NCBI GenBank assembly: GCA_017471045.1
Contig: JAFUWZ010000067.1
Coordinates: 1 to 38,877, forward strand
Length of the DNA stretch: 38,877 bases
Direction: 5' to 3'
DNA from: Bacteroidales bacterium
GTDB taxonomy: Bacteria; Bacteroidota; Bacteroidia; Bacteroidales; UBA932
The position numbers were made by a program, and so were the translations under genes. Every line of letters begins with the position of its first letter. Position 1 is the first letter of the stretch. This document shows positions 32,803 through 34,983 of the stretch, one piece after another. The notes under the pieces were generated by a model. It was not told the DNA's origin. It was given only the letters and a program-made list of their open reading frames with translations, and ran no database searches.

Positions 32803-33624
32803 TCAGTCTAATTCGGACAGGATGTCCAGGTCGTGGATGTCTTTCTTGCGAAGCTCATAGCCAATGTGGAAGAGCCGCTGTCCCTTGAGGGAGATGCAGG
32901 GGATGGTGCGCCCGGCGAATACAGCCGAGCCGAAAAGGTCCGGCGTGAACTCGAACCAGCCACCCTGCCCGTCGGCCTGGCGGGCGCTGCCGTCGGGGAA
33001 GAGCTCGAAGGGGTGGATGTCCAGGTAGCCCAGTTCCTGGTGGTGCAGTTCCATCCTGACGGGCATCATATCCGTCTCCACGACGAATCCTGCATCCTTC
33101 AGAGATGAGAGCAGCCGCGCGGTCTCCCTGCTGTCGTAATCGATATCCAGGTCGCGGTGCCGCCGGGTGCGCCTTCCGGCAAGGATGTCTACGCCCCAAC
33201 CTCCGTCCACCCAGTAGCGGATGCCCCTGTCGTCCAGTAAGCGAAGGATCTTCAGCAGGTCCCGCTCCGCGACGAACTCCTTCTTTCCGGCCTCGCGGAA
33301 CGCCTTCCATCCCGCTTCCGTCACCAGCCCCCGCTCCTCCAGGTCCGTGAAGCGCCGGGTGTTCAGGATGGTCCAGGTGCTGCCTCTTTTCCTAGGGGAG
33401 ATCCGCTGCGCCTGCCGTCCCTCATCCAGGCGCTTGACGGTGGAATCGATCCATCCGAAACAAAGGCACTCCTCGACGACCTCCGGGTAGGGGATTGCGC
33501 TGTGGCTGGGGCCCTTGCCGCGCGTCGTCGCCACCCAGCAGAAGGGCGTCGTACCGTGGTTCTCCTCAAGCCACTGCCGTAGCTCAGTCCGGTCGGAGAA
33601 CTCAAACAAAGGAGTGGTGTCCAT
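32803..33624 (-). CDS. YdeI-like N-terminus fused to aminoglycoside/lincosamide-type nucleotidyltransferase
   Basis: A 273-residue chimera. Residues 1-112 match the YdeI/OmpD-associated family (EECLCFGWIDSTVKRLDEGR and PRKRGSTWTILNTRRFTDLE), but the last third of that family is absent. From about 118 the sequence is a nucleotidyltransferase of the AadB/LnuA type, RYWVDGGWGVDILAGRRTRR with the metal-binding HRDLDID (D158, D160). It continues through ELGYLDIHPFELF to the end. Such enzymes add AMP to aminoglycosides or lincosamides, but activity on any drug is only a possibility. It is first in a three-gene operon, with a TATATTTG box at 33661-33654. Confidence 0.82.
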   Translation of the reverse strand: MDTTPLFEFSDRTELRQWLEENHGTTPFCWVATTRGKGPSHSAIPYPEVVEECLCFGWIDSTVKRLDEGRQAQRISPRKRGSTWTILNTRRFTDLEERGLVTEAGWKAFREAGKKEFVAERDLLKILRLLDDRGIRYWVDGGWGVDILAGRRTRRHRDLDIDYDSRETARLLSSLKDAGFVVETDMMPVRMELHHQELGYLDIHPFELFPDGSARQADGQGGWFEFTPDLFGSAVFAGRTIPCISLKGQRLFHIGYELRKKDIHDLDILSELD

Positions 33625-33891: not shown

Positions 33892-34893
33892 CTACGAGAT
33901 AGTCCATTTCCCGCCTTTGTCAGGACCTTCGCGCCTGATGAGTCCGCCGGCTTTCAGATTGGCCAGCTGCTTCTCGACAGCCTTCGGTGTGATTCCGATT
34001 TCTTCAGCAAGTCTTCGGGCGGAGTATTCTGGATGCTCTCTGAGCAGGGCAAGTATTTTCTCCCTACTTTTCAGCTTTTTCTTCCCACTATTTTCGATTT
34101 TCTCCCCACTTTCTCCCATCGACTTGAGGAAGGATTCGATATCCAGCGAAAGGGTCTTGACCATCTCTTCGGCCATGAAGTCCGTGAAATGGCTCATGTC
34201 CTCATCCTCTCGTGTTGCGATAAGAGCGTTGATGTAATCTCCCTTGTCTTCTTTCAGAACCTTAGACGGAACCAGTCCGAATTCGAATTGGATGTGGTTC
34301 ATGATGAGCCTGGCCATACGCCCGTTGCCATCAGCCCAAGGATGGATGGTCACCAGGCGGTAATGTGCCTCGAAACTGAAGTCATAGCATTCTGCCGTGG
34401 ACATAGGATGGGTACGCATTTCATTCAGCCAATCGCAGAACTCCTGCAGTCTGAGCGGCACTTTCTGGTAACTCATGTACGACCTGCCTCCGACTCCAGC
34501 GGTCACATTGACGAGCCGAAGGTCGCCGTTTGCGGAGGAGAACTCCCCGAGTGCGGTCTTATAGGTCGATCCGGTGTTCAGCATGACCAGCCGGGAAAGG
34601 TTTTTCAACACATCGACGGTGATGGGCGTATGCAGTTTGGCGAGCCGTATGCTTTCTTCATAAGCCCGTTTGAGGTCGAGGTTCATCATCTGCTCGGCAA
34701 TGGTCTTTCCCTTCGCGGAGATGCCCTCATCGAAAAGCAACTGGTTTTCGATCTCCGTCACCGTCGATCCTTCGATAGCCGTCGAGTGTGTGATGATCGA
34801 ATACAGATAAAACTTCTCATAGTCTATCTGAGAATCGATCCCGAGTTTCTTATAACGCTCCAGTAAAGCGATCAGTTGGTTCGTCTTTGCCAT
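33892..34893 (-). CDS. Fic-family protein with C-terminal winged helix
   Basis: A 333-residue Fic (AMP-transferase type) protein. The N-terminal helical part has STAIEG (S37-G42), which matches the inhibitory motif [S/T]xxxE[G/N] of self-restrained Fic proteins. The core motif is HPWADGNGRMAR (H184), close to HPFxDGNGRxxR. Residues 262-281 form a seven-residue-period linker (SGEKIEN, SGKKKLK, SREKILA). A winged helix (about 282-333, YSARRLAEEIGITPKAVEKQL) follows and probably binds DNA. The linker is encoded by three 21-bp units identical or close to boxes in the gene's own promoter. Confidence 0.92.
   Translation of the reverse strand: MAKTNQLIALLERYKKLGIDSQIDYEKFYLYSIITHSTAIEGSTVTEIENQLLFDEGISAKGKTIAEQMMNLDLKRAYEESIRLAKLHTPITVDVLKNLSRLVMLNTGSTYKTALGEFSSANGDLRLVNVTAGVGGRSYMSYQKVPLRLQEFCDWLNEMRTHPMSTAECYDFSFEAHYRLVTIHPWADGNGRMARLIMNHIQFEFGLVPSKVLKEDKGDYINALIATREDEDMSHFTDFMAEEMVKTLSLDIESFLKSMGESGEKIENSGKKKLKSREKILALLREHPEYSARRLAEEIGITPKAVEKQLANLKAGGLIRREGPDKGGKWTIS
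34056..34115. repeat. Intragenic 21-bp-period array in fic
   Basis: Three copies of a box like TTTTCTCCCTACTTTTC start at 34056, 34077 and 34098, exactly 21 bp apart. The first is identical over 17 bp to two promoter boxes. The others have small changes. On the coding strand the cores read AGTRGGRAGAAAA. They encode the linker before the winged helix. Confidence 0.8.
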
Positions 34894-34913
34894 AATCCTG
34901 TCCTTTTCTAATG

Positions 34914-34983
34914 CAAAAGTAGCATTTTCTCCCTACTTTTCATACTTTTCTCCCTACTTTTCCCGTTTTTCTTCCTACTCTTC
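34914..34983 (-). promoter_or_regulatory. fic promoter with three 17-bp operator-like boxes, 21-bp period
   Basis: The -7 box TACTTTTG (34921-34914) lies 20 bases before the ATG at 34893. Directly upstream are two perfect 17-bp copies of TTTTCTCCCTACTTTTC (34925-34941 and 34946-34962) and a third with two changes (34967-34983), each 21 bp from the next. They cover the spacer and -33 region, so a bound protein would control initiation. Confidence 0.8.

Follow-up and report, generated by a model that had tools for sequence, protein, structure and literature searches.

Fusions of a Fic domain to a helix-turn-helix (HTH) domain may regulate the expression of fic genes (PMC2686095). In CccR of Yersinia pseudotuberculosis, a Fic domain is joined to a C-terminal HTH and the protein represses its own promoter, to which it binds as a dimer that requires an inverted repeat with a 26-base-pair (bp) spacer. 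The excerpts available of that report (PMC9755527) and of the work on Fic-HTH fusions (PMC2686095) mention no intragenic site. Here we analyse a fic gene from a Bacteroidales bacterium (Bacteroidota; Bacteroidia; Bacteroidales; UBA932), situated in a stretch of 38,877 nucleotides which we call the window (GenBank assembly GCA_017471045.1, contig JAFUWZ010000067.1, positions 1 to 38,877 of the forward strand). The gene encodes a Fic domain followed by a winged helix-turn-helix (wHTH), and copies of one short box are arrayed over its promoter and again in the codons of the linker which precedes the winged helix. We consider it probable (about 0.7) that these boxes are sites for the wHTH of the gene itself, giving autoregulation through an operator at the promoter and a further array within the gene.

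Other systems share parts of this design. Intragenic operators are known from lac O2 in lacZ and from the inner gal operator, where the site of a regulator lies within a transcribed gene and is the partner of a promoter site. The fic locus likewise pairs an internal site with one at the promoter, but the lac and gal sites lie in target genes, whereas the sites described here lie in the linker codons of the predicted regulator itself, occur in several protein families and track the recognition helix. Iteron-binding plasmid Rep initiators are winged helices which read direct repeats about two helical turns apart, a likeness in both reader and spacing; iterons, however, are located at origins and Rep promoters rather than in linker codons, and a replication function is not suggested for the fic boxes. 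The AbiEi antitoxin also has a winged helix. As a DNA-binding protein with negative autoregulation through repeated sites it resembles the proposed system, but its repeats are inverted, the toxin is encoded by a separate gene, and the excerpt available of the report mentions no in-gene array (PMC7319586). CccR is a Fic-HTH protein for which self-repression is reported, and repeated sites over the gene's own promoter are found here too; in contrast to CccR, the fic sites are directly repeated at intervals of about 21 bp and recur in the coding sequence (PMC9755527, same excerpt). Within the terms used, the literature searched yielded no description of sites encoded in a linker.

Two box arrays at the fic locus

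The 17-mer TTTTCTCCCTACTTTTC occurs exactly at 34056-34072, 34925-34941 and 34946-34962 of the window, and in degenerate form at 34967-34983 (2 mismatches) and 34098-34114 (3 mismatches). Five matches at up to three mismatches compare with 0.05 expected, and none of 100 shuffles reached this number. Read on the fic strand, the box is the 16-mer AAAAGTAGGGAGAAAA, of which the window (locus L091 in the comparisons below) holds six: three upstream of the gene with 2, 0 and 0 mismatches, and three within it with 2, 3 and 0. The middle inner box (34077-34092) is not among the 17-mer matches at that threshold and was found with the 16-mer. In both arrays the direct repeats have a period of 21 bp, and the arrays are 869 bp apart. 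The initial annotation had described two three-box arrays about 870 bp apart, one over the fic promoter and the other in the linker codons directly before the winged helix, and both the arrays and their placement are borne out. The proximal promoter box starts 19 bp ahead of TACTTTTG, which we take to be a -7-type promoter element of Bacteroidota. In locus L009, whose Fic protein is 100% identical to that of the window, the upstream boxes start 89, 68 and 47 bases ahead of the ATG, and those within the gene start at codons 261, 268 and 275.

The rest of the 2.6-Mb genome contains three more matches at up to three mismatches and the reversed control pattern gives seven in all; at this threshold there is thus no excess over the control which would indicate further targets in the same genome.

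Distribution among related fic loci

A first scan retained the best 80 of 119 fic loci, and the addition of loci from further genomes of the same family brought the collection to 101 distinct fic loci. When the first-scan loci were searched with the box consensus at up to four mismatches, promoter boxes were found in all 38 loci of the window's clade having upstream sequence. Of the 40 other loci with upstream sequence, one gave a lone hit with four mismatches; the two remaining loci (L037, L060) start at contig ends. In a tree of 77 Fic domains the loci with boxes form one clade with one nested exception, L062, which has neither winged helix nor boxes. These observations bear on the possibility that another host regulator, and not Fic itself, reads the boxes. 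The sequence gives no indication of which protein reads the promoter boxes, which is compatible with such a factor. However, the box set stands out at this locus only within its own genome, the boxes accompany a single wHTH-bearing clade and are absent from its wHTH-less member, and the linker boxes track the recognition helix encoded by the same gene (see below). We regard a separate regulator as quite improbable.

Among 51 intact loci of the clade, examined at up to three mismatches, 41 carry the same site in promoter and coding sequence, as expected of an intragenic operator. Six have promoter boxes only (L032, L036, L040, L043, L090, L115), four have linker boxes only (L118, L120, L172, L173), and none lacks both. 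The linker-only loci contain 13 linker boxes, 12 of them perfect, and show no fic-strand box in 645 to 1000 upstream bases; L172 has one 4-mismatch hit on the other strand. The initial annotation had proposed a self-regulating Fic switch with operator and intragenic co-operator, and had held that homologues with the same linker and an unrelated promoter would refute it. Such homologues do exist, in the four linker-only loci, and with the six promoter-only loci they leave the idea of an obligate operator/co-operator pair unsupported. What the comparison retains of the switch is an operator at the promoter together with the same sites repeated within the gene, for which the protein's own wHTH is the most likely reader.

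Some loci (L100, L110, L113, L117) have boxes and a winged helix without a Fic domain in the open frame. L110 and L117 read as short open frames which run from an ATG directly before a box through the winged helix, and L113 is broken by a stop. The contigs of L039, L041 and L098 stop in or near the linker region, possibly due to assemblers breaking at repeats.

Geometry of the promoter array

Promoter boxes were found in 50 of the 54 clade loci examined, and their placement is nearly constant. The last upstream box starts 19-20 bp ahead of the -7 element (TAnnTTTG) in 44 of the 50, and 61 of 66 intervals between promoter boxes measure 20-22 bp, as direct repeats and not as an inverted repeat with the wide spacer of the CccR type. 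The interval across the -7 element is 31-33 bp in all 15 cases, and the A of the ATG is the last base of nine downstream boxes. Boxes which cover the spacer and straddle the -7 element would suit a repressor.

The surrounding DNA is not conserved in this way: between -600 and -100, flanking DNA is common to none of 1149 clade pairs with less than 85% protein identity (49 loci). It had also been suggested that the promoter copy is the leftover linker of a lost duplicate gene. As a general account this is disfavoured by the unshared flanks, the fixed position relative to the -7 element and the existence of both promoter-only and linker-only loci, although the two arrays have exchanged sequence in L112 and L121.

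In the mechanism which we propose, the C-terminal winged helix of the Fic protein binds both the promoter and the linker boxes. The array over the -33/spacer region would be the operator, where Fic most likely represses its own transcription. The inner array would offer a second set of the same sites, placed in the DNA for a disordered tether where the peptide can vary, and might form a roadblock, support looping or retain the protein at its own gene. Each gene would then hold both the reader and what is read. A protein sitting on its own gene could serve as a transcription roadblock, or could sense the presence of that gene and be released upon loss of, or attack on, the DNA.

Different promoter repeats, GTCGGAATAAAT and GGTGGTATATAAA, are found in the other fic genes L146 and L162, and the linker of L162 contains the similar TGGTGGTATAATGG.

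Codon bias and exchange between the arrays

Synonymous codon usage was compared over 51 genes and 195 conserved columns. The strongest bias is found at S276 (AGT in 87% versus 17% pooled), followed by R277 (AGG, 92% versus 25%), and E278 ranks fifth (GAG, 100% versus 46%). In L148 a linker box is translated in a different frame (WEVGRKI) and has 17 bp in common with the promoter of the same gene; L149 has the same letters at that linker site. Codon bias and the out-of-frame box together imply that the linker DNA is constrained, or was copied, as DNA. Constraint on the DNA rather than on the peptide is thus indicated by the codon test, here and in a second Fic clade though not in a third, and by out-of-frame copies.

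Exchange between the two arrays is visible in individual loci. Promoter and linker of L112 have 57 identical bases, spacers included, and those of L121 have 25, nine of them outside the box, identities which indicate that sequence was copied within a single gene. L100 resembles a fusion of a promoter array to a linker array plus winged helix, from which the Fic part is absent. Such cases would be expected if the arrays were recombination sites, at which exchange homogenises the arrays or removes the Fic part as a switch. Yet the arrays of one locus are not generally more alike than those of different loci: over 41 loci the mean fractional rank is 0.425, with 3 first ranks versus 1.0 expected, and general concerted evolution within loci is unsupported by these figures. 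Furthermore, L100 is a single contig, direct repeats permit no reversible inversion, and exchange leaves the fixed promoter geometry unexplained. A role as recombination sites has, in our view, very little probability. The variant GTAGTAAG is present in both arrays of two loci, in the promoter only of eight and in neither array of 41, numbers which are too small to weigh.

Codon bias outside the linker concerns Q22-I23 (CAG ATA, window 34825-34830), S81 (AGC) and S173 (AGT); some of this bias is also seen in two further Fic clades.

Covariation of linker DNA and recognition helix

Similarity of the linker DNA was correlated with identity at residues 302-313, the recognition helix region, with correction for the rest of the domain; the permutations ignore phylogeny. 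A first set comprised 66 genes, 36 from the Fic search and 30 others (Pfam: AlbA_2 in 21, Fic in 6). For a second set, 119 genomes were searched and 90 loci around AlbA_2 matches were collected, of which 35 have a winged helix (Pfam AlbA_2 in 34).

In the first set the partial correlation is 0.39 (0 of 2000 permutations), the sliding window reaches its maximum at 302-304, and among single columns 304, 307 and 308 perform best. The value is 0.415 when the window's clade is cut to two members (n = 51), and 0.335 for the 30 genes outside the Fic search. The second set gives 0.225 (0 of 2000) versus -0.002 for a control region (958 of 2000), with columns 305, 308 and 307 and wing positions 327 and 329 on top. 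Pairs across the two sets correlate at 0.265 with a peak at 302-303 (0 of 2000), and in a set limited to at most 50% identity (n = 27) the linker scores 0.235 and the control 0.015. If this covariation reflects recognition, the winged-helix types GTGGACAGAAA, GTCGTAGAAAAT and ACTACC would each favour their own linker box, and co-varying linker DNA and recognition helix could allow winged-helix specificity to be decoded from sequence alone.

A correlation with the recognition helix is found for the linker peptide as well (0.383), as would be expected if the disordered peptide docked on that helix in a self-inhibited state, with peptide and helix co-evolving and the DNA following passively. However, the DNA given the peptide keeps 0.191 (0 of 500), whereas the peptide given the DNA keeps 0.081 (5 of 500). 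Out-of-frame copies, moreover, yield different peptides, and the codons are biased. We judge peptide docking to be very improbable as the source of the covariation.

Linker arrays in other wHTH-tailed genes

Linker arrays with different boxes, some of them out of frame, are found in other wHTH-tailed Fic and AlbA_2 genes, which bears out the earlier impression of recurrent linker repeats among related Bacteroidota proteins. Two or more near-identical 12-mers are present in the linker of 53 of 66 genes in the first set and of 31 of 35 in the second, versus 4 and 3 control regions. Out-of-frame copies are present in 12 and 3 genes, versus 2 and 1 controls. In a second Fic clade of eight genes, GGQKTEKVDRKGGQK consists of three copies of GGTGGACAGAAA, the middle one out of frame, and the codons of the linker boxes, including those of the out-of-frame copy, make up 9 of the top 11 among 175 codon columns. 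Identical codons also link distant genes: GTC CCT GTA AAT is found in L056, L163, L249 and L261, and GTC GTA GAT or GAA AAT in L128, L139, L141, L157 and L256.

Repetition of this kind could have arisen by slippage, in which case the linker repeats would be kept for their peptide and the promoter copy would be fortuitous and without function as a site. The abundance of tandem repeats in these linkers favours this explanation, as do L120 and L172, whose three or four perfect boxes resemble recent expansions. It is nevertheless unlikely in view of the synonymous-codon bias, the out-of-frame copies and the identical codons in distant genes, to which the fixed promoter geometry and the tie between linker DNA and recognition-helix columns are added.

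Copies of the linker unit at the promoter were sought beyond the window's clade. None was found in the eight genes of the second Fic clade. Among 67 loci of other clades, 61 of which have a repeat unit, L079 beat 20 of 20 shuffles, which is about the chance level. In the second set (31 genes) a gene's own linker units are no closer to its promoter sequence than the units of other genes. One comparison of promoters and linkers, over 91 loci that included 11 of the window's clade, gave z near 4 for L064, L067 and L161. The outliers L133 and L126 were rejected as promoter copies, as they match the 3′ ends of winged helices and not linkers (L126 was judged from the matched letters). Because linker-only loci and other clades have linker arrays without promoter copies, the linker array is best read as the general element and the promoter array as an addition of the window's clade. 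Helical phasing was dismissed as a general rule: the period is 21 bp here, but spacings of 11, 12, 13, 20 and 30 bp occur elsewhere.

We incline, with some reserve, to the view that a widespread Bacteroidales class of wHTH-tailed Fic and AlbA_2 proteins encodes an array of its own binding sites in the linker DNA before the winged helix, sometimes in more than one frame. The linker repeats of a large and little-studied group of proteins would then be DNA sites and not mere peptide repeats. The sequence bound by each such winged helix would be predictable from its own gene, which would provide a natural data set for a specificity code, and a regulatory design with the site in the regulator's own tether would be at hand. 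The repetitive and odd character of these linkers would also be accounted for.

Several results weigh against recognition of the boxes by the gene's own winged helix. Codon bias is not confined to the linker, since I23 and S173 rank third and fourth, and the third Fic clade (MVDK, eight genes) shows no linker concentration of the bias. Promoter and linker arrays of one gene are, as described above, not generally closest to each other; among the 51 loci, four have only linker boxes and six only promoter boxes; and the other clades examined yielded no convincing promoter copies. Given the recognition helix, the remainder of the winged helix also correlates with the linker DNA (0.21, 0 of 2000, in the 66 genes; 0.154, 8 of 2000, in the second set), and in the second set the window maximum of 0.25 is reached at 298-300 and equally at the wing (318). 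At no more than 50% identity the window peak is shifted to 307, and the subset at no more than 45% (n = 19) shows no linker/recognition-helix signal (-0.03, 624 of 1000). In the sets of 51 and 30 genes, a control region located upstream also reaches 0.215 and 0.132, hence common descent contributes to the correlation; with this region as covariate, 0.368 and 0.311 remain.

Domain organisation of the Fic protein

The Fic/DOC domain scores 57 bits against PF02661, for which the curated cut-off is 24. Its motif HPWADGNGRMAR agrees with HxFx[D/E]GNGRxxR in all fixed positions except for a tryptophan in place of the phenylalanine, and H184, P185, W186, G189, N190, G191 and R192 are invariant in 51 sequences. 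Class II Fic proteins carry an inhibitory motif, [S/T]xxxE[G/N], located before the Fic motif. STAIEG (S37-TAI-E41-G42) fits this pattern and is a putative class II inhibitory motif. FICD homologues are the best sequence matches among solved structures, and a Bacteroides Fic protein (3cuc) matches at 4.7e-12.

An AlphaFold 2 (AF2) model from 51 sequences has a mean predicted local distance difference test score (pLDDT) of 79.7. Values below 50 are found at linker residues 261-274 and at residues 31-52. The linker leads into a winged domain of three helices, in which H3 spans residues 303-315 and the strands are formed by 319-322 and 329-332. We read residues 261-274 as a disordered tether, whose codons would therefore be free to carry sites. 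The features of the locus are collected in Table 1.

Table 1. Coordinates of the fic gene, its encoded domains and the box arrays in the window
Feature	Coordinates	Strand	Basis or remark
fic gene, 333 amino acids, Fic domain and C-terminal winged helix	33892..34893	minus	
Fic/DOC domain, residues 90-201	34291..34626	minus	Pfam PF02661, E 3.6e-15
Fic motif HPWADGNGRMAR, residues 184-195	34309..34344	minus	Sequence
STAIEG, residues 37-42	34768..34785	minus	S37, E41, G42 invariant in 51 sequences
Winged helix, residues 276-333	33895..34068	minus	Pfam HTH_24 at 276-320; folded in AF2 model
Recognition helix region, residues 302-313	33955..33990	minus	H3 = 303-315 in model
Linker box 1	34098..34113	minus	GAAAGTGGGGAGAAAA, codon 261
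Linker box 2	34077..34092	minus	AATAGTGGGAAGAAAA, codon 268
Linker box 3	34056..34071	minus	AAAAGTAGGGAGAAAA, codon 275; includes S276 and R277, ranked first and second for synonymous codon bias in the clade
Putative promoter element TACTTTTG	34914..34921	minus	Sequence and conserved geometry
Promoter box 3 (proximal)	34925..34940	minus	AAAAGTAGGGAGAAAA
Promoter box 2	34946..34961	minus	AAAAGTAGGGAGAAAA
Promoter box 1	34967..34982	minus	AAGAGTAGGAAGAAAA

The same genome encodes a second Fic domain (C48:16337-16600) and a partial one (C55:7688-7759), and no boxes were found in those loci at up to three mismatches. An open frame at 32803-33624 of the window, on the minus strand, resembles a YdeI-like domain fused to a nucleotidyltransferase-like one.
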